A DNA stretch of 64,000 nucleotides from Cellulophaga sp. 20_2_10. Lineage in GTDB: Bacteria > Bacteroidota > Bacteroidia > Flavobacteriales > Flavobacteriaceae. The first letter of the stretch is position 1. Every line of letters begins with the position of its first letter. Made by a program: the position numbers and the translations under genes. Below, in pieces: positions 12,966 to 49,446 of this stretch. The stretch lies in contig NZ_JAMCOJ010000011.1 of the NCBI RefSeq assembly GCF_023476645.1, positions 40,691 through 104,690 on the forward strand. Reading direction: 5' to 3'. The notes under the pieces were generated by a model. It was given only the letters and a program-made list of their open reading frames with translations. It was not told the DNA's origin and made no database searches.

Positions 12966-12967
12966 GA

Positions 12968-29907: not shown

Positions 29908-30453
29908 ATGAAGATTATAAAAACGGAGTTAGAGGGTTGCTTGATTATAGAACCAACAGTGTTTAAAGATAGTAGAGGATACTTTTTTGAGAGCCACAAT
30001 ACTGATCATTTTAATAAAGCTTTAGGTCAAAATGTTAGTTTTGTTCAGGATAACCAATCATTTTCTACGAGAGGGGTTGTAAGGGCATTACATTATCAAA
30101 AAGGGGGTAGTGCACAGGCAAAGTTAATTCATGTATTAAACGGTGTTATTTTGGATGTGGCAGTAGATTTAAGACCTAACTCCAAAACTTACGGAGAATA
30201 TTTCTCAATTGAGTTGTCATCAGAAAATAAAAAACAATTATTTGTGCCAAGAGGGTTTGCGCACGGATTTTCTGTTTTAAGTGATACTGCTGAGGTTTTA
30301 TATAAGTGTGATAACTATTACAACAAAGAATCTGAAGGAGGAATAATTTATAACGATTCAACTTTAAATATTGATTGGAAGCTTAAATCAGAAGAAATCA
30401 AAGTTTCACAAAAAGATCTAGTTTTACCAACTTTTAAATCGGCCTTACTATGA
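29908..30453 (+). CDS. rfbC: dTDP-4-dehydrorhamnose 3,5-epimerase
   Basis: 181 residues, full length. Third enzyme of dTDP-L-rhamnose synthesis. Signatures: GYFFESHNTDHFNKALG, FVQDNQSFSTRGVVRALHYQ with the catalytic His, the segment DLRPNSKTYGEYFSIEL, and FVPRGFAHGFSVLSD. Soluble cupin fold. The stop overlaps the next gene's start (ATGA at 30450-30453), so translation is coupled to rfbD. Confidence 0.95.
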   Translation: MKIIKTELEGCLIIEPTVFKDSRGYFFESHNTDHFNKALGQNVSFVQDNQSFSTRGVVRALHYQKGGSAQAKLIHVLNGVILDVAVDLRPNSKTYGEYFSIELSSENKKQLFVPRGFAHGFSVLSDTAEVLYKCDNYYNKESEGGIIYNDSTLNIDWKLKSEEIKVSQKDLVLPTFKSALL

Positions 30454-32697: not shown

Positions 32698-33822
32698 ATG
32701 AAAAAGAACCTAATCATATTTGGTACTAGACCAGAAGCTATAAAAATGGCTCCATTGGTAAAAGAATTTTTAAAGCATTCTGATACCTTTGAAACCAAAG
32801 TTTGTATCACGGCACAACATAGGGAGATGTTAGATCAGGTGTTATCCTTTTTTGAGATTACTCCAGATTACGATTTAGATTTAATGAAACCTAATCAGAA
32901 TTTATATTCTTTAACAGCAGATATTATTACTGGTTTAAAGCCAATCTTAGAGGATTTTAAGCCAGATTTTGTTTATGTTCATGGAGATACTACTACAACA
33001 ATGGCATCAAGCATAGCTGCTTTTTATTCTGGAGCAAAAGTTTGCCACGTAGAAGCAGGTTTAAGAACATTTAATAAAAGATCTCCATTTCCGGAGGAAG
33101 TAAATAGAAGTATTGCTGGCTCAGTTGCTGATTATCATTTTTCTCCAACTACAACGTCACAGCAAAATTTATTAAATGAAAATGTGAGGCAAGAGAATAT
33201 TATAGTAACAGGTAATACTGTTATAGATGCGCTTCAGTTTAGCTCTAATAAAGTGACATCAGATATGTATTCAGATGATGAAGTTGAGAGGCTGAAAACA
33301 ATTGTGGATACATCTAAGAAATTAATATTGGTTACTGGGCATAGAAGAGAAAATCACGGACAAGGTTTTATTAATATTTGTAGTGCATTAAAAGAGTTAT
33401 CCTTAGGTAATGAGGATGTACAAATTATTTATCCAGTGCATTTAAACCCTAATGTACAAAAGCCTGTTTATGAGCTTTTAGATAATGTGAGTAATATAAA
33501 ATTAATTGCACCTTTATCGTACCCTGCTTTCGTATGGTTAATGAGTCAATCTTATTTAATTATTACTGATAGTGGAGGGGTACAAGAAGAGGCTCCAAGT
33601 TTAGGTAAGCCAGTTCTCGTTATGAGGGATACTACAGAAAGACCAGAAGCTGTAGAAGCAGGCACTGTGTTTTTAGTAGGAACAGATAAAGGTAAAATAG
33701 TTTTAGAAGCGAATAAATTGCTTCATGACAAAGAAGCATATTCTGTTATGAGTAAATTACACAACCCCTATGGTGACGGGACTTCTTGTCAAAAAATAGT
33801 CGAATTTATTTCAAAATTATAA
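32698..33822 (+). CDS. wecB: UDP-N-acetylglucosamine 2-epimerase (non-hydrolysing)
   Basis: 374 residues, full length. Converts UDP-GlcNAc to UDP-ManNAc. Signatures: [44 protein letters not shown] and [20 protein letters not shown]. Cytoplasmic. Directly followed (2 bases) by wecC; the pair makes UDP-ManNAcA, the uronic-acid donor of enterobacterial common antigen. Confidence 0.96.
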
Positions 33823-33824
33823 TT

Positions 33825-35039
33825 ATGAGTAAAAGTCCAAGTGTTGTAATGATTGGTTTAGGTTATATAGGCTTGCCAACAGCAGCTTTAATAGCGCAAA
33901 ATAAAACTTACGTTCACGGAGTAGATATTAATCCAGATGTAGTAGAAACTATCAATCAAGGGAAAATACATATTGTAGAACCAGAATTAGATATTGCGGT
34001 TGCTAATGCAGTAAAAGAAGGCTATTTAAAAGCTGCTACAACGCCCGTAGAGGCTAATACCTATTTAATAGTTGTTCCTACCCCATTTAAAGCTAAAAAT
34101 GAACCAGACATTTCTTTCGTAGAGTCTGCAACACGAGCTATACTACCATTGTTAAAAGAAGACGATTTATATATAATAGAGTCCACTTCGCCTATTGGTA
34201 CTACAGAGAAGATGATGAAAATCATTTATACTGAAAGACCAGAATTAAAAGGAAAGTTGAATATAGCTTATTGTCCAGAGCGTGTACTACCAGGAAACGT
34301 AATGTACGAACTGGTACATAATGATCGTGTTATTGGGGGTGTTGATGAAAAATCAACTGAAAAAGCTATTGCGTTTTACAAGCAATTTATAAAAGGTGAC
34401 TTGCATAAAACGAATGCACGTACAGCTGAAATGTGTAAACTAGTAGAAAACTCTTCTAGGGACGTACAAATAGCATTTGCTAATGAATTATCACTTATAT
34501 GCGATAAGGCAGATATTAATGTGTGGGAACTTATAGAATTAGCTAATAAACACCCCAGAGTTAATATATTACAACCTGGTTGCGGAGTTGGAGGTCATTG
34601 TATAGCTGTAGACCCTTATTTTATAGTTTCAGATTATCCATTGGAATCTAAAATAATAGGCACGGCTAGAGAAATAAATAACTATAAATCGTTTTGGTGT
34701 GCAGAAAAAGTACAAACAGCCAAATTAGAATTTCAGATAAAACACGGCCGCAAGCCAAGTATTGCTCTAATGGGATTAGCATTTAAGCCTAATATTGATG
34801 ATTTAAGAGAGTCACCAGCTAAATACATTGCACAAAAGGTATTACAGGGTGCTAATGATGAGGAATATTATATTGTAGAGCCTAATATTACAGAGCACAA
34901 GGTATTTAAGCTAACAGATTATAAAGAAGCTGCAAGCAAAGCAGATATTATTGTGTTTTTAGTTTCTCATGATGAGTTTAAATCGTTAAATATCGCTACA
35001 GATAAAGTTGTATTAGACTTTTGTGGGGTAAAAAAATAA
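33825..35039 (+). CDS. wecC: UDP-N-acetyl-D-mannosamine dehydrogenase
   Basis: 404 residues from ATG 33825; an upstream in-frame ATG at 33786 would overlap wecB and adds no family sequence. NAD motif GLGYIGLPTA, IIESTSPIGTTEKM, AYCPERVLPG, catalytic Cys in GCGVGGHCIAVDPYF and GLAFKPNIDDLRESPA. The combination AYCPERVLPG with GVGGHCIAVDPYF fits WecC rather than UDP-glucose dehydrogenase. Oxidises UDP-ManNAc to UDP-ManNAcA with NAD. Confidence 0.95.
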   Translation: MSKSPSVVMIGLGYIGLPTAALIAQNKTYVHGVDINPDVVETINQGKIHIVEPELDIAVANAVKEGYLKAATTPVEANTYLIVVPTPFKAKNEPDISFVESATRAILPLLKEDDLYIIESTSPIGTTEKMMKIIYTERPELKGKLNIAYCPERVLPGNVMYELVHNDRVIGGVDEKSTEKAIAFYKQFIKGDLHKTNARTAEMCKLVENSSRDVQIAFANELSLICDKADINVWELIELANKHPRVNILQPGCGVGGHCIAVDPYFIVSDYPLESKIIGTAREINNYKSFWCAEKVQTAKLEFQIKHGRKPSIALMGLAFKPNIDDLRESPAKYIAQKVLQGANDEEYYIVEPNITEHKVFKLTDYKEAASKADIIVFLVSHDEFKSLNIATDKVVLDFCGVKK

Positions 35040-35041
35040 TT

Positions 35042-35566
35042 ATGAATAACAATTTTTATTTTTGTCTGATACTTTTAATAATTTTTTCATGCGAAAATAA
35101 ACCAAAAGAAGAAGTTTTTTTTAAAAAAGATTTAAATTATCACTTGAGTACAAACTTAAAAGAGTTAGATAATAGTGTTGGAATTGAAGAAAAATTAACG
35201 GATGATGTTTATTTAAGAGGATTTGCTTTTTATGAGAAAGGAAAAGATAGCTATGATTTGATATTAGAGTTCCAGGATGATATTACCAGTGAAATAGTAT
35301 CAAAATACACTTTTGCTGTTGAAGGTTTTGTTAGTGAAGACTATTTAGAGAACCTTTCAGACTATGCTACGTCTAGAAATAGAAAGTATGAAATTTGGAT
35401 TGGAACTTATAAATTAAGGAAAACTAATAATTATTGTTATCTTGTTATAGGCATAAAAACAAAAATTAAAAAATTTAACCTTATTAAGTTTTACTTATAT
35501 GACCAAGCTGGTTACAAAGGAGATATTGGTAAACGAGTTTTATTTTATAATTATAATATATATTAA
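35042..35566 (+). CDS. putative lipoprotein inside the polysaccharide operon
   Basis: 174 residues from ATG 35042. The signal peptide carries a lipobox-like IIFSCENK with Cys at about residue 17. The mature part is basic and aromatic with beta-like segments and has no family I recognise. It sits 2 bases after wecC and 13 bases before rmlB, so it is part of the operon. No equivalent exists in the ECA operon of enterobacteria. A role in assembly or retention of the polymer at the envelope is possible but only inferred. Confidence 0.6.
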   Translation: MNNNFYFCLILLIIFSCENKPKEEVFFKKDLNYHLSTNLKELDNSVGIEEKLTDDVYLRGFAFYEKGKDSYDLILEFQDDITSEIVSKYTFAVEGFVSEDYLENLSDYATSRNRKYEIWIGTYKLRKTNNYCYLVIGIKTKIKKFNLIKFYLYDQAGYKGDIGKRVLFYNYNIY

Positions 35567-35579
35567 GCGAAAAATTTAA

Positions 35580-36623
35580 ATGAATATATTAATTACAGGA
35601 GGAGCAGGTTTTATTGGTTCGCACGTGGTTAGGCATTTGGTTACTAAGTATCCTAATTATAATATTTTTAATCTGGATGTTTTAACTTATGCAGGCAATT
35701 TAGAAAACTTAAAAGATATTCAATCGGCCGATAACTATACTTTTTTAAAGGTAGATATCACAGACGAACAATCAATAAATAGACTGTTTATAAAACATAA
35801 ATTTACAGGAGTAATCCATTTAGCTGCAGAAAGTCATGTCGATCGTTCCATAAAAGAACCTTTAGCCTTTGCTAAAACAAACATTTTAGGAACTATTGTG
35901 TTGTTAAATGCGTTTAAAAGTCTTTGGCAAAATAATTGGGAAGGTAAACGATTTTATCACGTAAGTACAGATGAGGTTTACGGTAGTTTAGGAAAAACAG
36001 GTTTGTTTACAGAAACAACATCCTACGATCCAAATTCACCTTATTCGGCATCAAAGGCTAGTTCAGATCATTTTGTACGTGCTTACGGTGAAACTTATGG
36101 TATGCCTTATGTTATTAGTAATTGTTCTAATAACTATGGGCCAAACCATTTTCCAGAAAAATTGATTCCTTTATTTATAAATAATATTATAAATAATAAA
36201 GCCCTTCCTGTTTATGGTGATGGCTTATTTACAAGAGATTGGCTATATGTTAAAGATCATGCTGTTGCTATTGATTTAGCTTTTCATAAAGGTGAAAATG
36301 GAGAAACTTATAATATAGGAGGCTTTAACGAATGGACGAATATTGATCTAGTTAAGATTTTATGTACATTAATGGATGATAAACTAGGGAGAAAAGAAGG
36401 AACTTCACTGAAGTTAATAACCTATGTTAAAGATCGTCCAGGACACGATTTGCGATATGCGATAGATGCTTCAAAAATAAATAAAAAGCTAGGTTGGAGA
36501 CCATCGGTTACTTTTGAGGAAGGACTAAAAAAAACGATTGATTGGTATTTAGAAAATAAAGAATGGTTAAATAATATAACCTCTGGTGATTATCAAGAAT
36601 ATTACAATAATCAATATAATTAA
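35580..36623 (+). CDS. rfbB: dTDP-glucose 4,6-dehydratase
   Basis: 347 residues, full length (RmlB/RffG). NAD motif TGGAGFIGSH at residues 6-15, LAAESHVDRSI, STDEVYGSLG, the catalytic YxxxK in YSASKASSDH, and NCSNNYGPNHFPEKLIPL. Makes dTDP-4-keto-6-deoxyglucose, the branch point to dTDP-rhamnose (RmlC/D) and dTDP-Fuc4NAc (WecE/WecD). Its position after wecC matches rffG of the ECA operon. Confidence 0.96.
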   Translation: MNILITGGAGFIGSHVVRHLVTKYPNYNIFNLDVLTYAGNLENLKDIQSADNYTFLKVDITDEQSINRLFIKHKFTGVIHLAAESHVDRSIKEPLAFAKTNILGTIVLLNAFKSLWQNNWEGKRFYHVSTDEVYGSLGKTGLFTETTSYDPNSPYSASKASSDHFVRAYGETYGMPYVISNCSNNYGPNHFPEKLIPLFINNIINNKALPVYGDGLFTRDWLYVKDHAVAIDLAFHKGENGETYNIGGFNEWTNIDLVKILCTLMDDKLGRKEGTSLKLITYVKDRPGHDLRYAIDASKINKKLGWRPSVTFEEGLKKTIDWYLENKEWLNNITSGDYQEYYNNQYN

Positions 36624-36642
36624 AGTTTTAAAAGTATAAAAA

Positions 36643-37509
36643 ATGAAAGGTATAATATTAGCCGGTGGTTCAGGTACTAGACTTCATCCTCTTACTAAGG
36701 TTGTTTCTAAGCAGTTATTGCCGGTGTATGACAAGCCAATGATATATTACCCACTTTCTGTATTGATGTTATCTGGGATTCGCGAGATTTTAATAATTTC
36801 TACGCCGATGGATTTACCTAACTTTAAACGTTTATTCGGAGATGGTTCTCAAATAGGTTTGAAAATTAGTTATGCAGAGCAGCCATCACCAGATGGGTTA
36901 GCACAGGCATTTATTATTGGAGAAGAATTTATTGGAGATGATGATGTTTGTTTAGTATTAGGAGATAATATTTTTTATGGAGCTGGACTTCAAAAGTTAC
37001 TTTCAAATTCTGTTAATATAGTTAAGGAAGAAAAAAGTGCTGTTGTTTTTGGTTATTATGTTGAAGACCCAGAGCGTTACGGGGTTGCAGATTTTGATAC
37101 AGAAGGTAATGTCTTGAGTATTGAAGAAAAGCCAGTTAAACCTAAATCTAATTTTGCAGTTGTAGGTTTGTATTTTTATCCAAACTCTGTTGTGAAAATA
37201 TCAAAACAAGTTAAGCCATCTCATCGTGGAGAGTTGGAAATAACTTCAGTAAACAAAGACTATTTAGAACGAAAGCAATTAAAAATGCAAGTATTAAGTA
37301 GGGGATTTGCTTGGTTGGATACAGGGACGCATGAAGCCTTAACAGAAGCTACAGAATTTGTAAAAGCTGTAGAGAAACGAACTAGTCTAAAAATAGCTTG
37401 CCTAGAAGAGATTGCATATCGAATGGGCTATATATCGAGAAAGGAGCTAGCAAAACTTGCTGAAAATTATAAAAAAAGCGGATACGGCAATTATCTTAAA
37501 AGGATATAA
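36643..37509 (+). CDS. rfbA: glucose-1-phosphate thymidylyltransferase
   Basis: 288 residues, full length (RmlA/RffH). Nucleotidyl-transferase signature [20 protein letters not shown] near the N-terminus, [33 protein letters not shown], and [12 protein letters not shown]. Forms dTDP-glucose from dTTP and glucose-1-phosphate. It is followed with no spacer by wecD (TAA directly before ATG), as rffH is followed by wecD in ECA operons. Confidence 0.96.
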
Positions 37510-38202
37510 ATGAATATTATTAAGCTAGATTGGGACAGTGATTTTTTTGGATATACTATTGGAAGAGTTGATGTAAAAAGCCCTGGGGCTTTTGATTTTC
37601 CAAAATTTAAAAAAAATGCAGCTTTATACAGGTTAGTTTATTTATTTTCAGATCAAAAAATAGAGTCTAGTAAGGTACAATTAGTTGACACAAAGCTTAC
37701 CTTTAGTAAACAGTTAGAGCACGCCAACCTTGATGAAAATAGTAAGGTGAGTATATTCTTAAAAGGTAAAGATGATTTTAAAAAAATAGAGAAACTTGCT
37801 TTGCAAAGTGGAAAATATTCAAGGTTTAAAATTGATTTAAATTTTAAAAAGAATGAATATGAGCTTTTATATAAGAAATGGATAAGAAATTCTATTTATG
37901 AAGAAAAAGCAATAGAGGTTGCTATTTTTAAAGATAGCCAAGAAATTTTAGGCTTTTTCACCTTAGAAAAGAAAAGTGATTCTTTATGTGATATTAGTTT
38001 GGTTGCAGTTGACCAAAACGCCAGAGGGAAGAAAATAGGTACTAAATTAATTAATTTTGCAATATCTCAAGGAGTTAAAAAAGGGTTTAAAGATATTCAA
38101 GTTGTTACGCAACTAGAAAATCTACCAGCTAAAAATCTATATGAAAAGTGTGGGTTTAAAATTTGTAAAACAGAATATATATACCATTATTGGAATTTAT
38201 GA
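37510..38202 (+). CDS. wecD: dTDP-fucosamine (Fuc4N) acetyltransferase, WecD-like
   Basis: 230 residues. The N-terminus LDWDSDFFGYTIGRV resembles the WxxxFFG start of WecD/RffC proteins. The C-terminal half is a GNAT fold with the acetyl-CoA loop VDQNARGKKIGTKLI and the terminal NLYEKCGFK motif. In ECA synthesis this enzyme N-acetylates dTDP-4-amino-4,6-dideoxygalactose. Assignment leans on gene order, between rmlA and wecE exactly as in E. coli, and on a weak N-terminal match, because GNAT domains alone are not specific. The stop overlaps wecE as ATGA. Confidence 0.82.
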   Translation: MNIIKLDWDSDFFGYTIGRVDVKSPGAFDFPKFKKNAALYRLVYLFSDQKIESSKVQLVDTKLTFSKQLEHANLDENSKVSIFLKGKDDFKKIEKLALQSGKYSRFKIDLNFKKNEYELLYKKWIRNSIYEEKAIEVAIFKDSQEILGFFTLEKKSDSLCDISLVAVDQNARGKKIGTKLINFAISQGVKKGFKDIQVVTQLENLPAKNLYEKCGFKICKTEYIYHYWNL

Positions 38203-39332
38203 TACCATTCAATAAACCATTTTTAGTAGGAAAGGAAATTCGATATATTGAAGAGTCTGTAAAATCCGGAAAGATTTCAGGCAATGGATATTTTACAAAT
38301 AAATGTCAAAAATATTTTGAAGACAATTTTGGGTTCAAGAAAGCCTTATTGACCACATCTTGCACAGATGCATTGGAAATGACGGCAATGTTAATGAATA
38401 TTAAGCCCGGAGACGAAGTAATTGTGCCATCCTATACTTTTGTGTCCTCTGCATTAGCATTTGTTCGTCAAGGAGCTAATATTGTGTTTGCTGATAGTCG
38501 CGATGATCATCCTGGTATAAATGAAAATGGAATAGAAGCTTTGATTACTTCAAAGACTAAAGCTATTGTAGTAGTACATTATGCTGGTGTTGCTTGTGAT
38601 ATGGATGTAGTAATGGGTATTGCAAATAAATATAATTTATTTGTTGTCGAAGATGCTGCTCAAGCAATTGATTCTTATTACAAAGGAAAACCCTTAGGAA
38701 GTATTGGACATTTTGGAACATTCTCGTTCCATGAAACTAAAAATATAATTTCTGGAGAAGGGGGTTTGTTAGCCATTAATGATGGTCGGTTTGTTGATCG
38801 GGCTGAGGTTATTTGGGAAAAAGGAACTAATCGTTCTTCTTTTTTTAAGGGAGAGGTTGATAAATATGGTTGGGTAGATACGGGATCGTCTTTTCTTCCA
38901 TCAGAGCTGGTAGCTGCTTTCTTATATGCGCAGTTAGAACACTTAAAGGAGATACAACAGAAGAGAGAATCGTTATGGAACGTTTATTATAGCGCATTAA
39001 AAGAATTAGATAATCAAAATATTTTAAAATTAGCTAGCTTGCCTAATTTTGCGACAAATAACGCCCATATGTTTTATGTGATTACAAAAAACATAAAAGA
39101 ACGTGATGCGTTAATAGCGCATTTAAAAGGTAATGAGATACATGCCGTATTTCATTACTTGTCGTTGCATAAGAGTCCCTATTATACAAAAAACAATACA
39201 CTAGAGAGTGGTCAAGAATTACTTCAATCAGATAGATATACGGATTGCCTAATACGCTTACCGCTCTTTTATAATTTAAAAGTAAGTGAAGTAAATATGA
39301 TTTCAAAAGTGATAATCGACTTTTTTAAATGA
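38199..39332 (+). CDS. wecE: dTDP-4-amino-4,6-dideoxygalactose transaminase
   Basis: 377 residues from ATG 38199 (MIPFNKPFLVGKE), which overlaps the wecD stop as ATGA and matches the E. coli WecE start MIPFN. An in-frame ATG at 38190 is less likely. PLP-dependent DegT/WecE fold with Lys181 in SFHETKN, and VPSYTFVSSALAF, VVHYAGVACDMD, VEDAAQAIDSYYKGKPLGSI and REKGTNRS-like WEKGTNRSSFFKG segments typical of WecE. It aminates dTDP-4-keto-6-deoxyglucose to dTDP-Fuc4N. The stop overlaps wecF as ATGA. Confidence 0.94.
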   Translation: MIPFNKPFLVGKEIRYIEESVKSGKISGNGYFTNKCQKYFEDNFGFKKALLTTSCTDALEMTAMLMNIKPGDEVIVPSYTFVSSALAFVRQGANIVFADSRDDHPGINENGIEALITSKTKAIVVVHYAGVACDMDVVMGIANKYNLFVVEDAAQAIDSYYKGKPLGSIGHFGTFSFHETKNIISGEGGLLAINDGRFVDRAEVIWEKGTNRSSFFKGEVDKYGWVDTGSSFLPSELVAAFLYAQLEHLKEIQQKRESLWNVYYSALKELDNQNILKLASLPNFATNNAHMFYVITKNIKERDALIAHLKGNEIHAVFHYLSLHKSPYYTKNNTLESGQELLQSDRYTDCLIRLPLFYNLKVSEVNMISKVIIDFFK

Positions 39333-40489
39333 GAATATTGCATATAGCAACAGACGAAAAATTTATAAATAGTATAAGTTGGCAGTTTGGAAATATAACT
39401 AATACTGAGAATTATTATGTAATCTTATTAGATTCCATTGATTCTAATATTAAATATGTTACGCTCGATGAAAAATTTAAAATTGTTGTAAAGAATAAAA
39501 ATGGACTTGATTTCTGTATTAAGGAAATAGAAAAACATGATATAGTTATTTTTCATGGCCTTAATTATTTTCAAAGTCAAATTGTTCTAAAGACTAATAA
39601 TGTGTCCAAATTAGTTTGGTTCTTTTGGGGAGGCGAGTTTTATGACAACCCTAAATTGCTGAAATTAAATTCTATTGGGGATAAAACAAAGGAGCTTTTT
39701 GTTAATACTACTATAAAGAATAAGCTAAAAAGAATAATACGACCATTATTTTATTTTTTAAAGAATCATACAAAAACGCCAGAACGGACAGTTTTGGATG
39801 CTGCTAAAAAAATACATCATTTTGGAATTCTTTACAAAGAAGAAATGGATTACTTTAAATCTTTAGGGTGTTTGTCTGACGATGTTTCTTTTTTTAAAAT
39901 GACCTATTATCCGTTAGATTTTATCTTTAAAGGTATAGAAAACATTAAAGTGAGCGGAACTAATATTTTAATTGGTAATTCGGCTTCTTTAACAAATAAC
40001 CATATAGAAGCATTTGATTTACTCAAGGACATTAAGCTTGAAAACAGAAAAATAATCGTGCCTTTAAGCTATGGAGATAAGAATTACGGAAAATCTATAA
40101 GTCATATTGGAAAAACTCTTTTTGGGCAAAATATGATGCCACTTTCTGAGTTTATTACTTTAAATGAATTTAATACACTTTTAAGTAGCTGTAATGTGGT
40201 AATAATGAATCATTACAGGCAACAAGCTGTTGGGAATGTTATTGCTGTTTTGTGGATGGGATCCAAAGTTTATTTAAATGAAAGTAATACACTTTATCAT
40301 TATCTAAAACGTATTGGTATTGCAGTTTTCTCTATAAATGAAGAGTTAAAGAAAAACCCTGAAGCGTTTGTAGGCTTAAATGATGCTCAAATCAATAATA
40401 ATAGAAAAATTTTGATAAGCGAAATGGGTTTTGAGGCGGTTAAGAGCAATATGTTTGAAGGGCTTAAATCTATTCTTAATGACTATTAA
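39329..40489 (+). CDS. wecF: TDP-N-acetylfucosamine:lipid II N-acetylfucosaminyltransferase (WecF, GT56-like)
   Basis: 386 residues. The central part NILIGNSASLTNNHIEAFDL followed by KIIVPLSYGDKNYG matches the WecF pattern (GNS...NHI...VPxxY). FFWGGEFYDN and MNHYRQQAVGNVIAVLWMGS correspond to WecF HIWGADLYE and ARQQGIGTL regions. WecF adds Fuc4NAc to the ManNAcA-GlcNAc lipid-linked disaccharide, completing the ECA repeat. A linker of about 60 residues near 130-190 makes it longer than the E. coli enzyme. Coupled to wecE (ATGA overlap) and overlapping wzx by 11 bases. Confidence 0.85.
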   Translation: MRILHIATDEKFINSISWQFGNITNTENYYVILLDSIDSNIKYVTLDEKFKIVVKNKNGLDFCIKEIEKHDIVIFHGLNYFQSQIVLKTNNVSKLVWFFWGGEFYDNPKLLKLNSIGDKTKELFVNTTIKNKLKRIIRPLFYFLKNHTKTPERTVLDAAKKIHHFGILYKEEMDYFKSLGCLSDDVSFFKMTYYPLDFIFKGIENIKVSGTNILIGNSASLTNNHIEAFDLLKDIKLENRKIIVPLSYGDKNYGKSISHIGKTLFGQNMMPLSEFITLNEFNTLLSSCNVVIMNHYRQQAVGNVIAVLWMGSKVYLNESNTLYHYLKRIGIAVFSINEELKKNPEAFVGLNDAQINNNRKILISEMGFEAVKSNMFEGLKSILNDY

Positions 40490-41918: not shown

Positions 41919-41921
41919 AAA

Positions 41922-42119
41922 ATGAATCCGTTAGAATATTGGATGCATACTAACAAGGAATTAAAACTGTTTCTAGATAATTATTTTTCATCGCATATAA
42001 ATCTTGTCCAAAACTCTCAATTAAAACAAGACTGTATTACAAATTATAATACCGGAAATGGTATCGAGAAAATGCAGGTAATATCTTTGCTAAGTGCGCT
42101 TAAGTTATTTTTCAATTAA
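41922..42119 (+). CDS. small hypothetical, possible remnant of a larger gene
   Basis: 65 residues, starting 3 bases after wzx stops. The N-terminal part NPLEYWMHTNKELKLFLDNY and the end GIEKMQVISLLSALKLFFN recall the C-terminal tail of asparagine-synthase-like enzymes that occur in flavobacterial polysaccharide clusters. If so, this is a remnant whose catalytic part has been lost. That likeness is from memory and weak; a genuine small protein is the alternative. It converges on the lyase gene, five bases away. Confidence 0.4.
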   Translation: MNPLEYWMHTNKELKLFLDNYFSSHINLVQNSQLKQDCITNYNTGNGIEKMQVISLLSALKLFFN

Positions 42120-42124
42120 TCGGT

Positions 42125-43927
42125 TTAGTTTAAGTTTATTTTATGTTCTATGTCATCTTTAGTATAAAAAAGAATGTTATTTTTTATATAAGGATTTGTA
42201 ACAGGTAAATTATATTGTTTTGATTCTATCAATATTATTGTTTCCATAAATGGGTCGTCAGAATTTAAAATTATTTGTTTAGAGTCCACGATTTTAAAAG
42301 GACTGACTGATCTAAAAAAGTCTTTTTCTAGAAAGGTGTTTTTTACACCTGTCGTAAACATTGAAACTGTAATGTTATTTGGCATAGAAAATACAACTTT
42401 ATTGTTTGTGTTTTTTATTTTGGAAACTCCTTTGCCTATATTAAAAATTTGCTGTAATGTTTCTGCTTTTTTAAGTCCATTAACATCATCTTTTACCACT
42501 ATTAAGTTTGGTTTAATAAAGAATAACTGTCTGTTAACAGTTAGCGAGTCATACATGTTGTGAGACGCTTCAATCATTTCATAAGTGTCTCTTGTTGTAT
42601 AGCTATTTAATTTTGAGTATTGGCCTTTTCTCCCAAGAGTATAATCTTTATTATTAACAACTATTGTATTGTGAGCAAATACAGACATCAGTAAAGGACG
42701 ATTTATTTTATCGTAGCCATAATATCCTTGATCTGTGAAAACATCTGTCCCTAAGGTGTGATAAACAAACGAAAGATCGTCGTGATGTTTATGTACTTTG
42801 GATTTATAATTGGCAAATAGTGCTAAATAGCTTTTATCGGTTGTTTTGGATCTCAATGTTGCAATGTTGTTTTCAAAACTAACCATAGAATTTAGATTAT
42901 AATTGCTTAATAGAGCATGTAATCTGCTATCGTTTTCAAAATCAGAAACTAGTTTCGGAGATAATTTTTCAATTTGACTATCTCCCCACAGTGGAAATGT
43001 TAAATCTGGTTTGATTAATTGGACTAAGATGTCGTTCATTTTTAAATATTTTAAAAGCTTGTCTGGAGGTGTAGTACCTTGTCCAATAAGTTTAAAAATG
43101 TTTTTGTAAAGATTGTGGTTAAAAATATGATATGTCATAGAATGCTCTTTAGCAAGTCCACTTTTATCTATAATCTTATCAAAACTATTTAGTGCCCTTT
43201 TTGAGGCAATATTTTTAAGATCTTCTGATATAAATCTGTTGCTAATAAATGCTTTAGAAGAGTATAGTAAGGAGCGGTCCATCATTAAGGAATGGTTATG
43301 GACAGAATAATTTGTTGGATCAACCATGAATTTAATATTTTCAGATAAATGGTTAAAACAAATTTGAATAAAAGAGATGTCTGGTTTATTTAAACCTAAT
43401 TCGTTGCTTATTGTTTGAAAAATATGAGTTGTTCTGAAAGCACACGAATGGTCGTACCATGAAAACTTTGATGTAGTAAAATTTTTGTTTTGGTGTAGTT
43501 TGATATAGCTTTTAATATAAGCTTTAGCTTTATTATGATATTTTATCTCATTTGTGTTTTTGTAAGCGTGATTAAGTGATGATACAAATAGTAAATTTTG
43601 ATAATATAATTGCCATGTGTCGTTTTTGAGTGGGTTTTCTGTCCAATCTATAGCATCAATATTAATACTAAACGATTTAAGAGAATTTAAAACTATAATG
43701 CTATCATTAATTATACTGTTAGCTATTTTAAGTAAGGTATTACCTTTATATGGAACTGTACGAGGTATTTCATTAAAGAGAATATTCTCTTTTAGATCAG
43801 AAATACTGAATTGGTAATTGGATTTTTTGTAATTAAAATTAATTTCCTTCTTTTGGGCACTTACCGATTGAGTAGAAACAAGAAACAAGAAACAAGAAAC
43901 AAGAAACAAGAATTTATTCAATTTCAT
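42125..43927 (-). CDS. secreted heparinase II/III family polysaccharide lyase
   Basis: 600 residues from ATG 43927. The signal peptide (residues 1-24, ending SVSAQ) is coded by a heptanucleotide repeat. An alpha-helical toroid domain spans about 50-340 (WSYDHSCAFRTT-like segment FSWYDHSCAFRTTHIF). A Hepar_II_III beta-sandwich domain follows with HKHHDDLSFVYHTLG, VFTDQGYYGYD and SVFAHNTIVVN. Such enzymes cleave uronic-acid-containing polymers by beta-elimination. It is the only gene of the locus on the minus strand and has its own -7 element. It may trim or degrade the polymer made by the surrounding genes. Confidence 0.88.
   Translation of the reverse strand: MKLNKFLFLVSCFLFLVSTQSVSAQKKEINFNYKKSNYQFSISDLKENILFNEIPRTVPYKGNTLLKIANSIINDSIIVLNSLKSFSINIDAIDWTENPLKNDTWQLYYQNLLFVSSLNHAYKNTNEIKYHNKAKAYIKSYIKLHQNKNFTTSKFSWYDHSCAFRTTHIFQTISNELGLNKPDISFIQICFNHLSENIKFMVDPTNYSVHNHSLMMDRSLLYSSKAFISNRFISEDLKNIASKRALNSFDKIIDKSGLAKEHSMTYHIFNHNLYKNIFKLIGQGTTPPDKLLKYLKMNDILVQLIKPDLTFPLWGDSQIEKLSPKLVSDFENDSRLHALLSNYNLNSMVSFENNIATLRSKTTDKSYLALFANYKSKVHKHHDDLSFVYHTLGTDVFTDQGYYGYDKINRPLLMSVFAHNTIVVNNKDYTLGRKGQYSKLNSYTTRDTYEMIEASHNMYDSLTVNRQLFFIKPNLIVVKDDVNGLKKAETLQQIFNIGKGVSKIKNTNNKVVFSMPNNITVSMFTTGVKNTFLEKDFFRSVSPFKIVDSKQIILNSDDPFMETIILIESKQYNLPVTNPYIKNNILFYTKDDIEHKINLN
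43874..43912 (-). repeat. heptanucleotide tandem repeat in the lyase signal-peptide codons
   Basis: On the minus strand, five complete copies of TTCTTGT plus TTCT (39 bp). They code for FLFLVSCFLFLVS, the hydrophobic core of the signal peptide. Because 7 is not a multiple of 3, gain or loss of one or two copies would shift the frame just after the start. A change of three copies keeps the frame. Confidence 0.9.
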
Positions 43928-43953
43928 AATTATGAATGATTTAATTTTATTTC

Positions 43954-43961
43954 CAAAAGTA
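43954..43961 (-). promoter_or_regulatory. -7 promoter element TACTTTTG for the lyase gene
   Basis: Minus-strand exact TAnnTTTG match, 26 bases upstream of ATG 43927. It supports that start over the longer frame from 44002. No clear TTG is found 17-20 bases further upstream. Confidence 0.5.
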
Positions 43962-44008
43962 ATAATTATTATAGCAGAAGATGTATTTTTGCTATCTAAC
44001 ATTTTGTT

Positions 44009-45127
44009 TTGAATAAGTTAATACGATCGTTGCTTGTTATTCTTTTTATGCTTCAGGGCACAAATGATTTTAACAGTTTAATTTTAATGCTTTACATTAT
44101 CCTATTAGGATGTGTATGTTTTGTTAATAACAATCGGGTTAAAATGCCTAGTTATTATATTCTAGCATTAGTAGTCTATTCCTTTTATTTGTTTTTAGGT
44201 CTTATTAATGGTCATGATAGTCCTCTAATAGATATTAAATTTCAATTTTTTTCATTTCTTTTTTTCTTTTTATTGTTAAATCAAAATATTAATATTTTGA
44301 AATTATTATTTTTAATAAATGGTATTGTATTTATCATATATTTTTTACTATTATTTAATTTAATACCTAATATTTGGAATGAAAATACTTTAGGACATGG
44401 AGGACGTGTATACGGCCCATCAATAATTTCTATTAATTTGTTGTTCTTTTATTACTTAAAAAAAGGGAAAGTGTTTGACAGAAAGCTTGTAATAGCTGCA
44501 ATGATGGGGTTGCTTTATATTGCGCTAACTACAAATTTCATGAATTTAGCAGTGTTTGTTGCTCTTGCCTTTTTGTTAATGGTGAATTTTAAAAAACTAT
44601 TGAAGCCTATTTATTTGGTTTCTATTATTATTATTATTATTGGAGGTTTGACTTATTTAAATTCCCCCTATGTTCCAAAATTAGTGGCAGCTAAGATGAA
44701 ATATATTTATAAACCTTGGGAATATGGAAGTCTTAAAACTAGGGTAAAAGATTTTAATCAGGTTGTTGAAAATGAAGATTTTGGAGTTTTTAAATCTTTT
44801 TTTGGTGAGGGTTATGGTACTAGTTCCCAGGTTTATCGCTATAATCCTATATCCATATCTTTAAGTAGAACTTTTAGTTTTCAAGAAATTGATAATGGCT
44901 TTTATTATATATACCATAGAGGTGGATGGACTTTGTTTGTTTTATTTGTACTTAGTCATCTCTATTTGTTTTTTAAAATTAAGCTGCTTAAAGGTAGGTT
45001 AGGTTTTGTAGTATTTGTTTTTTTTACCTGTATTCTATCTATTCATTATTTTAATTACTATTATTATTTGTTGATTCCTTTTTTTATTCTTGACGATAAA
45101 AGAGTAAATACTAAAACAGTTGTGTAA
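44009..45127 (+). CDS. multi-pass membrane protein, Wzy-type polymerase candidate
   Basis: 372 residues from TTG 44009; the next ATG would remove the first helix and a stop lies just upstream. About ten membrane helices and one longer periplasmic loop (about 215-290) containing GEGYGTSSQVYRYN and IDNGFYYIYHRGGWTLFVLF. These features are common to O-antigen/EPS polymerases, where sequence conservation is low. The ATG of the next gene overlaps its stop by one base. It is divergent from the lyase gene. Confidence 0.7.
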   Translation: MNKLIRSLLVILFMLQGTNDFNSLILMLYIILLGCVCFVNNNRVKMPSYYILALVVYSFYLFLGLINGHDSPLIDIKFQFFSFLFFFLLLNQNINILKLLFLINGIVFIIYFLLLFNLIPNIWNENTLGHGGRVYGPSIISINLLFFYYLKKGKVFDRKLVIAAMMGLLYIALTTNFMNLAVFVALAFLLMVNFKKLLKPIYLVSIIIIIIGGLTYLNSPYVPKLVAAKMKYIYKPWEYGSLKTRVKDFNQVVENEDFGVFKSFFGEGYGTSSQVYRYNPISISLSRTFSFQEIDNGFYYIYHRGGWTLFVLFVLSHLYLFFKIKLLKGRLGFVVFVFFTCILSIHYFNYYYYLLIPFFILDDKRVNTKTVV

Positions 45128-46134
45128 TGAATATACTATATGTTGTTCCTGATTTAAATAAAGTTTCTGGTGGGCCTAGAACAAGAATAACCATGTTTAA
45201 AAACGTTTTTATAAAAAACGGTGGTGTAGTTATAGAAAATGGAGATAAGTTGTTTAAAAGTATAAAGCCAAGGAAGTTAAACCTAGTATATGTTGAATCT
45301 GCAACAAATAGAGTTGGTTTGCTAGATGTAGTCTCTTTATTTTTTTTAAGGTTGTATTCAAAAAGAGTAACGGTGTTTATAAGGGATATATATATCGAGT
45401 TGTTCCCGGAAGAATATAAAAAACCGAGGAAAAAAATAACGCTTATATTAAACAAAATAAGTAATTTTTATTTGGCACTAATCGCAACAGATATGGTGTT
45501 TCCGACTAAAGATATGGGGAAAGTCTTTTTTGAAAAAAATAATTTTTACCCCAGTCGTGAATATACAGATTTACCTCCTGGTACTTTGAAAACAAATAAG
45601 AGTTATAGTATACCTAGTTTTAATAAAAAAGTCGGAATATTATATTTAGGTAGTACAAAATATGCAAATGCAGGGTTTGATAAATTTATTGATTTTTCTA
45701 GAGCATATTCTAAATATTATAATTTTTTTGTATTATCTGGAGATAAAGGTTTGGCATCTAAATTTAAAGAAGAAGAAATAGCTTTTGATAAAGTTGTTCA
45801 TTCCGAAATCCCTTCGTTTATTAAAAATCATAATATTGCTTTTGCAATACATACAAGACCAAGAAATTTATATGATGATTTAACTTTTCCGATAAAAGTG
45901 TTGGATTTTGTTGCTATGCAGCTTCCTTTTTTTTCAGAAAGACACGTCCCAATTGTAAAATTGTTGGGAGAAAGCTACCCTTTGTTTTATGGTTTAACTA
46001 ATCAAGAAAAAATTCATTTATTCATTCAAAATATGGATGAAGAAACTTATACTTCTGTAGTAGAGCACTTTAAGGAGGTTACATCAAGAAATAGTTATGA
46101 TAAAAGATATAAAAAGTTGCTTAGTCAACAATAG
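45127..46134 (+). CDS. glycosyltransferase (GT4-like)
   Basis: 335 residues, soluble with a Rossmann-like pattern. The N-terminus MNILYVVPDLNKVSGGPRTR has the Gly-rich acceptor-side loop of GT-B enzymes. The C-terminal half has VGILYLGSTKYANAGFDKFI and the nucleotide-sugar side TFPIKVLDFVAMQLPFFSER, where GT4 enzymes have a conserved Glu motif. Specificity cannot be read. It overlaps both neighbours (1 base and 38 bases), so translation is coupled. Confidence 0.75.
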   Translation: MNILYVVPDLNKVSGGPRTRITMFKNVFIKNGGVVIENGDKLFKSIKPRKLNLVYVESATNRVGLLDVVSLFFLRLYSKRVTVFIRDIYIELFPEEYKKPRKKITLILNKISNFYLALIATDMVFPTKDMGKVFFEKNNFYPSREYTDLPPGTLKTNKSYSIPSFNKKVGILYLGSTKYANAGFDKFIDFSRAYSKYYNFFVLSGDKGLASKFKEEEIAFDKVVHSEIPSFIKNHNIAFAIHTRPRNLYDDLTFPIKVLDFVAMQLPFFSERHVPIVKLLGESYPLFYGLTNQEKIHLFIQNMDEETYTSVVEHFKEVTSRNSYDKRYKKLLSQQ

Positions 46135-47359
46135 TTGGCAGGACATTTTTTTTAAATTGAGCACATATTTTTATGTTATTACTTTTCCTTTGTTTTTAAA
46201 TTTGAATACAATTGCTTTGTGTTTATTTGTTTTTGGTAGTGTTATCACATTTAAAAGGCATCGAGGATTTATAAATTTAAAAGAAAATAAATTGGAGATT
46301 ATTTCTTTTTTATTTCTTTTTCTTGCGTTTGTTTTTGGTTTTTTCCTTTCTAAGGATACCACTAGAGTACTTAAAGATATAGGGAGAACTTTGCCTTTAG
46401 TTATAATCCCTATAAGTGTTTTACTGCATAGAAAAAGTGATTTCAATTTTAAAAGTATATACATATCATTAGGTTGGGGGTTATTTATTGGAATGCTGAT
46501 TTGTTGGTTTAATATTATAAAATCTATACTTTCAAGAGAAAATTATTTAAAACAAGCATCATATTTTTTTGAGTGGATCTATACAGATGCAAATTTAGTT
46601 AAGCCATTGGGTGTTCACCCGAGTTATTTTGCGGTATTATTAGTGCTCTTTATTAGTGTTTTATGTTTTGATAAGATTTTTATGAAACTGCAAAAAAATA
46701 AGTTAAAATTAATTCTAATTCTTGCACCGTTCTTTCTTTTTTTAATAGAGACAAATAGTCGTGTAGGTATAATATCATTAATAGTTATTTTTCTTATTCA
46801 TGCATTAAAAACATTTAGAATCAAACTAATTTTAGGGGTAGTTTTGTTGATTTTTTTGACTGGACTATTATCACTTAAATTCAATTATTTAGGTTCTAAA
46901 TTCAGTAAAATTATTAGTCTTAATGGAGAAGTTAAGTTTGAACGCTTTCAGCGTTGGAAAGAGATTGCTAATGTATTTAATGAAAAAGATAAATTAATAT
47001 TAGGGGTAGGTTCTGGTGATGCAAGATTGGTGTACCGTAGGGCATATTATAATGGAGGATTTGACCTAGCACTTAGAAATAATTATAATGCACATAACCA
47101 ATATCTAGAATTTTTTGTTTCTAATGGGATTTTAGGATTGTTTATTTATTTGTTTCTGTTAATTGTTTTTTATAAAAGCACAAAAATAAAAGGGAGTTCT
47201 ATGCATTTTTTTGTTGTTTTTATTTTGTTTTCTATGACAGAAAGTTTTTTAGGTAGAAGTCAAGGAGTAATGATTTTTTCTTTTTTTTATTCTATACTAG
47301 TTTTAAATTATAAGCCTATTAATCGTCATGAAAAAATAGTCAAGAGGTTTTTAATTTAA
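46097..47359 (+). CDS. O-antigen ligase/polymerase family membrane protein (Wzy_C-like)
   Basis: 420 residues, about 11-12 membrane helices. The region LIETNSRVGIISLIVIFLIH and the large loop ending NAHNQYLEFFVSNGILGLFI are the Wzy_C (PF04932) signature, with the conserved His in HNQYLE. Such proteins polymerise repeat units or ligate glycan to an acceptor (WaaL). The locus thus has two polymerase/ligase-like genes, this one and 44009. It overlaps the glycosyltransferase gene by 38 bases. Confidence 0.82.
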   Translation: MIKDIKSCLVNNSWQDIFFKLSTYFYVITFPLFLNLNTIALCLFVFGSVITFKRHRGFINLKENKLEIISFLFLFLAFVFGFFLSKDTTRVLKDIGRTLPLVIIPISVLLHRKSDFNFKSIYISLGWGLFIGMLICWFNIIKSILSRENYLKQASYFFEWIYTDANLVKPLGVHPSYFAVLLVLFISVLCFDKIFMKLQKNKLKLILILAPFFLFLIETNSRVGIISLIVIFLIHALKTFRIKLILGVVLLIFLTGLLSLKFNYLGSKFSKIISLNGEVKFERFQRWKEIANVFNEKDKLILGVGSGDARLVYRRAYYNGGFDLALRNNYNAHNQYLEFFVSNGILGLFIYLFLLIVFYKSTKIKGSSMHFFVVFILFSMTESFLGRSQGVMIFSFFYSILVLNYKPINRHEKIVKRFLI

Positions 47360-47435
47360 AATTTTATTAATGTTAAATTTAGGTTTTAGGTTAGAGAAAA
47401 TAAAATTGTCTTAATGAATCACTAATGTCAAAAAA

Positions 47436-48515
47436 ATGAAAATATTTTTAATATCCAATATGTTTCCATCTTCCAAAGATCCCGTTTATGGTGTGTTTGT
47501 TAAAAACTTTAGAGACCAATTGTTGGCTCAGGGCATGCGGTTTTCGTGCTATTCGCTAATTTTTGGTAAATCTCATTTGATATTTGGTAAAATATTAAAA
47601 TATGCAAAATACTATATTTCAATTGGCTTTAATTTTATAAAAAAAGATTATGATGTCATTTATGTCCATTATTTATCACATAATACACCTATCTTATTGT
47701 TCTTACTTTTTTTATTTGGAAAAAGTAAACCTATAATTATTAATACCCATGGATCGGACGTTACTAAGTCTAAGGATAAGTATATTGATAAATTGAACGA
47801 GCGGTTGTTAAAAAAAATAGACTTAATAGTTGTGCCTTCTCAATATTTTAAGGAGCTAATCTTAAAACAATATTTATCTCTTGAGGAAGAAAATGTATTT
47901 GTATCCCCTTCTGGGGGTATAAACAGGGAAACCTTTTACTGTAAAATAAATAAAGAGTCTAACAAGGAATTTAGGCTTGGTTTTGTATCTAGGATTGATA
48001 AAAATAAGGGATGGGATGATTTTGTTAATGCATTGAGAATTCTTGAAAAAGATGGGGTAAATTTTAAGGCTCTAATTGCAGGAAGGGGAGACGATGTAGA
48101 TGAATTACTTGACTTAATTTCCGTTAATAAACTTCAACAAAAAATTATTTATGTTGGTGTATTGGATCAAAATCAGTTGTGCGATTTTTATAATGAATTA
48201 GACGTTTTTGTTTTTCCTAGTAAGTTGTCAGAAAGTCTCGGTTTGGTTGGTTTAGAAGCTATGAGTTGCGGAATACCTGTTATTGGAAGTGGTATAGCAG
48301 GAATAAAAACATATGTTAAAAATAATTTTAATGGATTTTTATTTGAGCCTGGTAATATACAAGACTTAGCAGATTGTATAAAACAATATTCCGTATTTAG
48401 TGATATTAAAAAAAATGAGTTTTCACTAAATGCTATAAATACTTCTGAGAAGTATGACTCTAAATATGTTACTAAAAATTTAATTTTAAAATTAAAAGAA
48501 ATTGTTATTTTATAA
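47436..48515 (+). CDS. glycosyltransferase family 4 protein
   Basis: 359 residues, GT-B fold. LGFVSRIDKNKGWDDFVNAL marks the start of the Glycos_transf_1 domain, and VFPSKLSESLGLVGLEAMSCGIPVI carries the GT4 E-x7-E-like motif. The N-terminal domain holds NTHGSDVT. The sugar donor is unknown. It is the last gene before a 190-base spacer, so wecG and later genes may form a separate transcription unit. Confidence 0.88.
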   Translation: MKIFLISNMFPSSKDPVYGVFVKNFRDQLLAQGMRFSCYSLIFGKSHLIFGKILKYAKYYISIGFNFIKKDYDVIYVHYLSHNTPILLFLLFLFGKSKPIIINTHGSDVTKSKDKYIDKLNERLLKKIDLIVVPSQYFKELILKQYLSLEEENVFVSPSGGINRETFYCKINKESNKEFRLGFVSRIDKNKGWDDFVNALRILEKDGVNFKALIAGRGDDVDELLDLISVNKLQQKIIYVGVLDQNQLCDFYNELDVFVFPSKLSESLGLVGLEAMSCGIPVIGSGIAGIKTYVKNNFNGFLFEPGNIQDLADCIKQYSVFSDIKKNEFSLNAINTSEKYDSKYVTKNLILKLKEIVIL

Positions 48516-48708
48516 TGTATTCTATTTTTGTTTTTAAGTTTGTAATGAATAAAGTATTTTTTTTCGATTGCTTAATTATGTATTAATTTGAGTTCAGGTT
48601 AATAATAGCTATTAATACTATTTATTTAGATTAAATAAAAAGAAGATTTTTTTTGTAAAAATAAAAGATGTTTTACATGTAGCCTTTACGTAAATTTAAT
48701 TTTCTATA

Positions 48709-49446
48709 ATGAAAGATATAAACATACTTAACACCCATATTCATAATTTAAGTATGGAAGAGACTTTAGAAATTATAGATGCTACAATTTCTAAAGGAGA
48801 ACAATTACACCATGTAGTTGTGAATGCAGGAAAGATAGTAGCAATGCAGAGAGATATGCAATTGCGCCAAAGTGTTAATGAAAGCGACTTAATTAATGCA
48901 GATGGCCAGGCAGTAGTGTGGGCCTCTAAAATTTTAAAAAAACCATTAAAAGAACGTGTTGCGGGCATAGACCTTATGGTTAACCTGGTTGCTTTGGCTG
49001 CTAAAAAGAAATATAAAGTATTTTTCTTTGGAGCAAAAGAAGAAGTGGTTAAGGAGGTTGTAAATATATATTCAAATCAGTATTCTTCAGATATTGTTGC
49101 TGGTTATAGGAATGGTTATTTTAAAAAAGAAGAAGAGCAGGATATTGCTCGAGAAATAGCTGAGAGTGGAGCAAACATCCTATTTGTGGCTATTAGTTCT
49201 CCTACTAAGGAAAACTTTTTGTACGAAAATAAAGAGCTTTTAAAAAAAGTGAACTTTGTTATGGGAGTTGGCGGTAGTTTCGATGTTGTTTCAGGTAAGG
49301 TAAAGCGTGCTCCATTGTGGATGCAAAATTATGGTTTGGAATGGTTTTATAGGTTTGCCCAAGAGCCAAAGCGAATGTGGAAACGTTATTTAATTGGTAA
49401 TTCTAAATTTATGTACCTAGTTTTAAAGGAAAGATTAAAAAGTTAA
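48709..49446 (+). CDS. wecG: WecG/TagA/CpsF family (GT26) UDP-ManNAcA transferase
   Basis: 245 residues. GT26 signatures: HHVVVNAGKIVAMQRD, the DADG-like NADGQAVVWASKIL, RVAGIDLMVNL, and GVGGSFDVVSGKVKRAPLWMQ followed by LEWFYRFAQEPKRMWKRY. WecG transfers ManNAcA to GlcNAc-PP-undecaprenol. TagA transfers ManNAc, but linkage to wecB/wecC/wecF favours ManNAcA here. In ECA operons wecG is last; here it follows five interposed genes and precedes the initiating transferase. Confidence 0.9.
   Translation: MKDINILNTHIHNLSMEETLEIIDATISKGEQLHHVVVNAGKIVAMQRDMQLRQSVNESDLINADGQAVVWASKILKKPLKERVAGIDLMVNLVALAAKKKYKVFFFGAKEEVVKEVVNIYSNQYSSDIVAGYRNGYFKKEEEQDIAREIAESGANILFVAISSPTKENFLYENKELLKKVNFVMGVGGSFDVVSGKVKRAPLWMQNYGLEWFYRFAQEPKRMWKRYLIGNSKFMYLVLKERLKS

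Follow-up and report, generated by a model that had tools for sequence, protein, structure and literature searches.

The two described systems closest to the gene cluster analyzed here are the wec operon of Escherichia coli K-12, which encodes the enterobacterial common antigen (ECA), and the O-specific polysaccharide of Cellulophaga pacifica. The cluster lies in a stretch of 64,000 nucleotides from Cellulophaga sp. 20_2_10 (contig NZ_JAMCOJ010000011.1, positions 40,691 to 104,690; hereafter the window, in whose own numbering positions are given). The C. pacifica polymer comes from the same genus, and the title of the report describing it names both 4-acetamido-4,6-dideoxygalactose (Fuc4NAc) and N-acetylmannosaminuronic acid (ManNAcA) (Perepelov et al. 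2013, Carbohydr. Res. 372:69). The O-polysaccharide of Cellulophaga baltica is reported to be like that of E. coli O93 (PMC10191223); here too a Cellulophaga polymer resembles an enterobacterial one, but the sugars differ (Man, GlcA, and GlcNAc). Judging from the C. pacifica title, both rare sugars have thus been reported for the genus and the cluster is of a known kind; what this analysis adds is an assignment of the genes, their mosaic history, and an exchangeable acyl position.

The window shares with the E. coli K-12 wec operon the genes wecB, wecC, rmlB, rmlA, wecD, and wecE, a glycosyltransferase of family GT56, and a WecG-family transferase, with almost the same arrangement. It differs in that no WecA was found and the initiating enzyme is of the WcaJ type, in that Wzx, Wzy, and Wzz have no significant match to their namesakes, in that WecD and WecF are only 23-25% identical, and in that the locus varies between species; rmlC and rmlD, ugd, a UDP-xylose-type gene, a GT4 gene, and another candidate transferase gene are additional in the window. 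We consider it likely that the region 28805-51811 is a Wzx/Wzy-type cluster for an O-antigen, i.e. the O-polysaccharide of lipopolysaccharide (LPS), and that its ECA-like order results from mosaic exchange at a variable locus. An earlier note on this DNA had listed the series wecB-wecC-rmlB-rmlA-wecD-wecE-wecF-wzx, followed further on by wecG; all of these reading frames are open and intact, with the order and coordinates of Table 1. That list lacked rmlC, rmlD, and ugd just upstream, wcaJ and a UDP-xylose-synthase-type gene just downstream, and a heparinase II/III-like gene that lies within the cluster; wecA was not found.

The enzymes for the two sugar nucleotides are present, as the earlier note had proposed. 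WecB, WecC, RmlB, RmlA, and WecE all score above curated NCBIfam cut-offs and are 54-63% identical to the E. coli proteins (61% for WecB). For UDP-ManNAcA, both WecB and WecC exceed equivalog cut-offs. For dTDP-Fuc4NAc, RmlA, RmlB, and WecE lie above their cut-offs, and the best matches of WecE in the Protein Data Bank (PDB) are the transaminases 6blg (422 bits) and 4piw (416 bits), the next sugar aminotransferase scoring 153. WecD is assigned by best family and fold: among families, the WecD equivalog PRK10975 scores highest, with 94 bits across residues 2-223 that stay under its cut-off of 219, and a full-length alignment gives 23% identity to E. coli WecD. Its AlphaFold model has a mean predicted confidence (pLDDT) of 92.7, and a Foldseek search of the PDB returned E. 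coli WecD, 2fs5, as the best of 1340 matches by E-value (E 4.8e-14, template modelling (TM) scores 0.76/0.79), ahead of a second match with E 3.0e-10 and TM 0.62/0.58. On the basis of this model, the protein is a diverged WecD, with the GNAT fold and the WecD N-terminal part. That it might be an unrelated acetyltransferase, as the earlier note had asked, was ruled out by the fold search. We therefore soundly predict from the gene content that ManNAcA and Fuc4NAc are sugars of the cluster.

Both transferases had been claimed as well, and this held at the family level: WecF belongs to GT56 by Pfam PF07429, above the cut-off (Table 1), and WecG belongs to its superfamily, while no WecF or WecG equivalog cut-off was reached. 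The earlier note had named WecF and WecD as the weak points, and neither of the two sequence outcomes that it gave as refuting the pathway, a protein at 39329 outside GT56 or an unrelated acetyltransferase at 37510, was observed. WecF stays below all six WecF equivalog models that it matched in NCBIfam (best 166.5 bits, cut-off 457) and is 25% identical to E. coli WecF over 186 aligned positions; in the alignment, its motifs GNS, NNH, PLSYG, and RQQ are common to relatives and in part to E. coli WecF. A PDB sequence search with WecF gave one weak match only, to an unrelated protein (E 0.0092), and no solved GT56 structure. The WecG-family protein is the only PF03808 match in its genome. It is assigned to the WecG/TagA/CpsF superfamily only, the TarA model scoring 152.9 and the WecG model 150.8; ManNAcA is the probable donor because wecC lies in the same cluster.

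The assembly machinery is where the set departs from ECA, and to call the whole set ECA-like, as the earlier note had, claims too much. WecA was not found in the genome, which is rated 100% complete: its sole PF00953 match sits between MurE- and MurD-like reading frames and is MraY. Two initiating transferases of family PF02397 are encoded in the genome, with WcaJ within the cluster; the second, a sugar-phosphate transferase of 213 aa, lies outside it at C1:712519-713043. When the Wzx, the Wzy candidates, and the Wzz-like protein were compared by BLAST with their ECA namesakes, no match had an E-value better than 0.36, and Wzx in particular has no significant BLAST match to WzxE. The Wzz-like gene at 28805, which the earlier note had listed upstream of the series, showed no Wzz match in Pfam, Wzz scored below the Pfam threshold in the two homologues scanned, and hhalign gave no support for likeness of the family to three E. 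coli Wzz proteins (probability 1). Its model (pLDDT 69) has helices at both ends flanking an alpha/beta domain, and the best 50 of 335 Foldseek matches are all Wzz, Wzc, or KpsE entries, with TM scores of at most 0.44. A role as polysaccharide co-polymerase is thus suggested at the level of the fold in a low-confidence model, and likeness to WzzE was not borne out. The parts of a Wzx/Wzy cluster are all together, wzx, wzyC, and wcaJ by family and the Wzz-like gene only by this model.

The single genes do not share one history. The closest counterparts of WecB (94% identity) and WecC (96%) are in another Cellulophaga (locus L127; loci are numbered with L throughout), whose cluster, read to purD and beyond, contains neither WecE nor WecF. 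WecE and WecF are 82% and 71% identical to those of a Bizionia metagenome-assembled genome, which is the sister of the window in both trees (support 100/96 for WecE and 100/99 for WecF), and L042, the GT56 cluster of the one other Cellulophaga genome that has GT56, has a Maribacter cluster as its sister (99/92 and 100/99). In the RmlA tree, the window enzyme groups with those of 10 of the 15 other WecE clusters and with the two E. coli enzymes, and it stands apart from those of all 15 other Cellulophaga loci included (100/97); a link to the ECA enzyme RffH is not well supported (83/68), and another RmlA type occurs in 5 of the 16 WecE clusters (L043, L050, L081, L085, and L095). RmlB is nearest L042 (85%). 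Because WecB and WecC are nearest Cellulophaga L127, WecE and WecF nearest Bizionia, and RmlA is of the module type, the ECA-like series is probably a mosaic formed by exchange among Bacteroidota within a variable O-antigen locus.

The earlier note had instead suggested that the module was transferred or deeply conserved as a whole. Neither transfer from enterobacteria nor deep conservation of the whole set is needed to explain the order, and the separate affinities of WecB/WecC and the low identities of WecD (23%) and WecF (25%) to E. coli speak against both. A true ECA operon, acquired from or held in common with Enterobacterales and making the ECA trisaccharide, would account for the order from wecB to wecE and for the identities of 54-63%; we consider it highly improbable, given the missing WecA, the unmatched machinery, the nearest relatives of WecB and WecC in Cellulophaga, and the length of the E. 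coli branch in the WecF tree (2.97 changes per column) and in the WecC tree (2.44). The extra transferases of the cluster argue against the ECA trisaccharide, and an ECA review gives Flavobacterium as ECA-negative (PMC7439462). Transfer of the ECA operon was accordingly rejected, on the WecA result, the machinery, and the mosaic ancestry. An old common origin of the inner part alone (rmlB-rmlA-acyl gene-wecE and GT56) is possible; the ECA reference was the E. coli K-12 operon alone, plus one GT56 locus of Serratia rubidaea that is unlike the ECA operon, and with such narrow sampling of Gammaproteobacteria, statements about a deep origin are weak.

E. coli was chosen as the root of the WecE and WecF trees. 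The WecF tree, which was made without GT56 proteins of at least 430 aa or at most 45 bits, shows long branches for E. coli, L057, L075, and others and an unsettled bootstrap, and the RmlB, WecB, and WecC trees were quick ones without bootstrap. L082 and L083, which lie on the contigs of L042 and L043, and L131, which comes from the L042 genome, were dropped from trees and from the slot counts below.

The locus itself is variable within the genus. The Wzz-like gene was found in all 18 Cellulophaga genomes, in one (G013) by a partial match that was left out of the comparison, and up to 20 kb downstream of it were read in 16 of the 17 other genomes, two stretches being shorter (7.0 and 13.1 kb). 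In 15 of these 16 stretches the cluster opens with an rmlB-like gene and rmlA, the later content differs per genome, and purD closes the cluster in 8, the other stretches ending earlier. GT56 occurs in 2 of the 18 genomes. The constant Wzz-like gene, the differing content, and the rare GT56 therefore indicate a variable O-antigen locus.

Searching for WecF beyond the genus, as the earlier note had proposed, showed GT56 to be sporadic in Bacteroidota: in the family sample 17 of 397 genomes have a match (16 above the cut-off), and in the phylum sample 23 of 395; the genome of the window is counted in both, and two further matching genomes are common to them. WecE scoring above 400 bits is present in 23 of the 39 20-kb stretches around GT56 matches from the genus, family, and phylum samples, where L056 and L058, which have no WecF-like protein by phmmer, are counted as misses. 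It is this recurrence among GT56 loci that argues for an ECA-like order beyond chance. In nine loci (L064, L066, L067, L069-L071, L074, L079, and L080) the GT56-like stretch is part of a reading frame of about 560 to more than 3500 residues, as if fused to other domains; eight of the nine belong to a single Bacteroidota family (f24).

The gene that immediately precedes wecE, wecD in the window, proved changeable. Among 42 distinct loci with WecE above 400 bits, this slot, classified by phmmer likeness, holds a WecD-type GNAT protein in 9 (the window, L085-L088, L091, L094, L095, and L097), another GNAT-domain protein in one (L092), a formyltransferase-like protein in 11, an LbH hexapeptide protein in 6, and a PglD-like protein in one; in the other 14 it is filled by WecF itself, RmlA-like proteins, flippases, or others. 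L073 has a formyltransferase-like gene one gene further upstream. Pfam confirmed the representatives scanned, namely two formyltransferase-like, one LbH, one PglD-like, and two GNAT proteins besides those of the window and L092. These alternatives suggest that an exchangeable slot for an N-acyl gene precedes wecE, which is new here.

Changes between GNAT and formyltransferase-like slots number at least 9 on the WecE and WecF trees each (22 rows, 10 of them GNAT including E. coli). Shuffled slot labels gave a mean of 7.6 changes, and 289 of 300 (WecE) and 285 of 300 (WecF) shuffles needed no more changes than the real labels. The count was still 9 after removal of the duplicate row L131, and also after exclusion of L046 (21 rows), whose formyltransferase-like gene and WecE lie on the opposite strand from GT56, so that its label is unfit for the WecF tree; without E. 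coli, L046, L063, and L073, there were 8 changes over 18 rows compared with shuffled means of 6.4. The slot type follows neither tree and shows no tendency at all to do so. In both trees, well supported sisters with differing slots are the window (GNAT) and Bizionia (formyltransferase-like), L042 (formyltransferase-like) and L091 (GNAT), and L084 (formyltransferase-like) and L086 (GNAT). L087 (GNAT) and L096 (formyltransferase-like) are sisters in the WecF tree (100/100) and form a trio with L099 (LbH) in the WecE tree (100/97), whereas L048 (formyltransferase-like) and L053 (LbH) are sisters in the WecF tree only (100/100), L048 standing weakly with L043 in the WecE tree. Resolution is poor in the trees of the formyltransferase-like proteins (7 of 9 inner branches open) and of the GNAT proteins (5 of 7) themselves.

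In the PDB, the L042 slot protein (12107-12991) is closest to the ArnA formyltransferase domain and to methionyl-tRNA formyltransferases. When aligned with E. coli Fmt, all 12 formyltransferase-like proteins beside or near wecE keep the His and Asp, but Val stands in place of the Asn in the N-x-H motif, an Asn that we take to be catalytic. Formylation by these proteins is a guess from homology. The dTDP-Fuc4N pathway of Bacteroidota may be a circulating cassette with one exchangeable acyl position, whose formyltransferase-like members may carry out an undescribed acyl transfer on Fuc4N; we see about equal reason to believe and to doubt this.

The exchange of the slot among relatives raises the question of whether the GT56 product of the window carries another N-acyl group, or is another 4-amino sugar than Fuc4NAc. 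GT56 alone is no proof of Fuc4NAc: in the four such loci tested against NCBIfam (L047, L051, L103, and L104), GT56 adjoins or lies near a dTDP-sugar aminotransferase, as in the window, but the best family of that enzyme is DesI, below the DesI cut-off, instead of WecE, and L051 and L103 have a PglD-like gene instead of WecD. Two of the four aminotransferases have 2po3, presumably DesI, as best PDB match. DesI-type enzymes make the 4-epimer Qui4N, and these loci, including L104 in Serratia rubidaea, suggest a Qui4N branch of the GT56 family. Such a product is quite unlikely for the window, whose aminotransferase is WecE by a wide margin and whose slot protein has WecD as its closest solved fold; because of WecE, Fuc4N is the better call.

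For the Wzx/Wzy-type O-antigen cluster that we favor, the steps would be as follows. WcaJ would load the first sugar phosphate onto undecaprenyl phosphate; WecB and WecC would provide UDP-ManNAcA, to be added by the WecG-family enzyme, and RmlA, RmlB, WecE, and WecD would provide dTDP-Fuc4NAc, to be added by the GT56 enzyme. Further sugars would be added by the GT4 enzyme and a putative second transferase, with RmlC and RmlD (L-rhamnose) and the Ugd and UDP-xylose-synthase-type enzymes as possible suppliers, after which Wzx would flip the unit and a Wzy would polymerize it under the Wzz-like protein. As the window holds one copy each of rmlA and rmlB, both probably serve rhamnose as well as Fuc4NAc. 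The enzyme families of this scheme are observed, and the acceptors, linkages, sugar order, and ligation to lipid A-core are predicted around them, the attachment to lipid A-core because of the C. pacifica title. As to its origin, a local wecB-wecC pair would have been joined to a mostly rmlA-led block, [acyl]-wecE-wecF-wzx, in circulation among Bacteroidota, in which the N-acyl gene is swapped between relatives.

Several points weigh against this interpretation. Two genes of the cluster have no family, the equivalog cut-offs of WecD and WecF were missed, and the WecG-family protein cannot be separated by score from the TarA type. RmlA, by its tree, is not fixed to the block and is exchanged too. 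The C. pacifica structure may stem from a related but different cluster. Finally, the cluster has no demonstrated LPS-specific anchor gene, so that a capsule or another glycan is possible. The same sugars could then enter a capsule, an exopolysaccharide, or a protein O-glycan, with which the absence of a proven ligase in the cluster, the second initiating transferase gene (213 aa) elsewhere in the genome, and the heparinase-like gene inside the cluster, as for a uronic acid polymer, would agree; we regard this as unlikely, since the Wzz-like gene, the Wzy_C protein, and the variable content at one locus across the genus members read favor an O-antigen, and the published polymer with Fuc4NAc and ManNAcA is, by its title, an O-specific polysaccharide.

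The features of the cluster are listed in Table 1. The place of the heparinase-like gene (42125-44002, minus strand) is taken in L042 by a glutamine amidotransferase/asparagine-synthase-like gene and in L091 by an unassigned gene of similar length. A homologue of the UDP-xylose-synthase-type gene scoring above 500 bits is present in 9 of the 16 same-genus stretches, several of which are cut short. The part from wecF to wecG (39329-49446) has a G+C content of 0.277, compared with 0.318 for the whole window.

Table 1 Genes of the predicted O-antigen cluster, in window coordinates.
Gene or product	Position	Strand	Evidence
Wzz-like protein, putative polysaccharide co-polymerase	28805..29857	+	Low-confidence model match to co-polymerase entries; homologues in 18/18 Cellulophaga genomes
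rmlC, dTDP-4-dehydrorhamnose 3,5-epimerase	29908..30453	+	TIGR01221 236 bits, above cut-off
rmlD, dTDP-4-dehydrorhamnose reductase	30450..31229	+	PF04321 273 bits
ugd, nucleotide-sugar (probably UDP-glucose) dehydrogenase	31255..32655	+	TIGR03026 above cut-off; best equivalog TuaD 321.7, below cut-off 700
wecB, UDP-GlcNAc 2-epimerase	32698..33822	+	TIGR00236 492.9 bits, cut-off 210
wecC, UDP-ManNAc dehydrogenase	33786..35039	+	NF008286 535 bits, cut-off 459; ATG probably 33825
Small protein, lipoprotein-like start by inspection	35021..35566	+	Between wecC and rmlB; no significant match in Pfam or NCBIfam; homologues in L043 and L081
rmlB, dTDP-glucose 4,6-dehydratase	35580..36623	+	TIGR01181 461 bits, cut-off 365
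rmlA, glucose-1-phosphate thymidylyltransferase, module type	36643..37509	+	TIGR01207 468 bits, cut-off 361
wecD, dTDP-Fuc4N N-acetyltransferase, putative exchangeable acyl slot	37510..38202	+	Best family PRK10975 (below cut-off) and fold match
wecE, dTDP-4-keto-6-deoxyglucose 4-aminotransferase (Fuc4N)	38190..39332	+	NF008687 566 bits, cut-off 375; ATG probably 38199
wecF-like GT56 Fuc4NAc transferase	39329..40489	+	PF07429 60.8 bits, cut-off 25; motifs common to relatives
wzx, flippase, MOP family, WzxC/TuaB type	40431..41918	+	NF007773 332 bits, cut-off 273; ATG probably 40479
Heparinase II/III-like protein within cluster	42125..44002	-	PF07940 59 bits; homologue at same place in L081
Candidate O-antigen polymerase (Wzy), function inferred	44009..45127	+	Very hydrophobic; no family match in Pfam or NCBIfam; partners in L042, L043, L081, and L091
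Putative glycosyltransferase, function inferred from position	45127..46134	+	No significant family match in Pfam or NCBIfam; partners in L042, L043, and L091
Wzy_C / O-antigen ligase family protein	46097..47359	+	PF04932 57 bits, cut-off 31.7
GT4 glycosyltransferase	47436..48515	+	PF00534 117 bits
wecG/tagA/cpsF family transferase, probably ManNAcA	48709..49446	+	TIGR00696 176.6 bits, cut-off 69; below equivalog cut-offs
wcaJ-type initiating hexose-1-phosphate transferase	49476..50828	+	TIGR03023 422 bits, cut-off 410.75
UDP-glucuronate decarboxylase-type (UDP-xylose synthase) gene, name by inspection	50837..51811	+	PF01370/PF16363; below equivalog cut-offs

In the literature searched, which left subscription journals mostly outside, we found neither a paper tying genes of such a cluster to the C. 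pacifica O-antigen nor the term Fuc4NFo. The cluster is a likely gene basis for the Fuc4NAc and ManNAcA that the C. pacifica title reports in a Cellulophaga O-antigen. The statement of a genome survey that Fuc4NAc occurs only in Gammaproteobacteria (PMC7725333) is called into question as well; one possible reason for such a miss is that WecD and WecF of Bacteroidota lie far below curated cut-offs. Given its different assembly machinery, the product is most likely an O-antigen of the ordinary kind and not an enterobacterial antigen acquired by transfer. If the cassette interpretation is true, a single gene swap would alter the N-acyl group, and hence the antigen, while WecE, GT56, and Wzx stay, so that the exchangeable acyl slot offers a simple and testable idea of antigen change. 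Sugars of antigen variation would be of ecological interest in Cellulophaga, because the O-antigen of Cellulophaga lytica is reported as a settlement cue for tubeworm larvae (PMC11271524).

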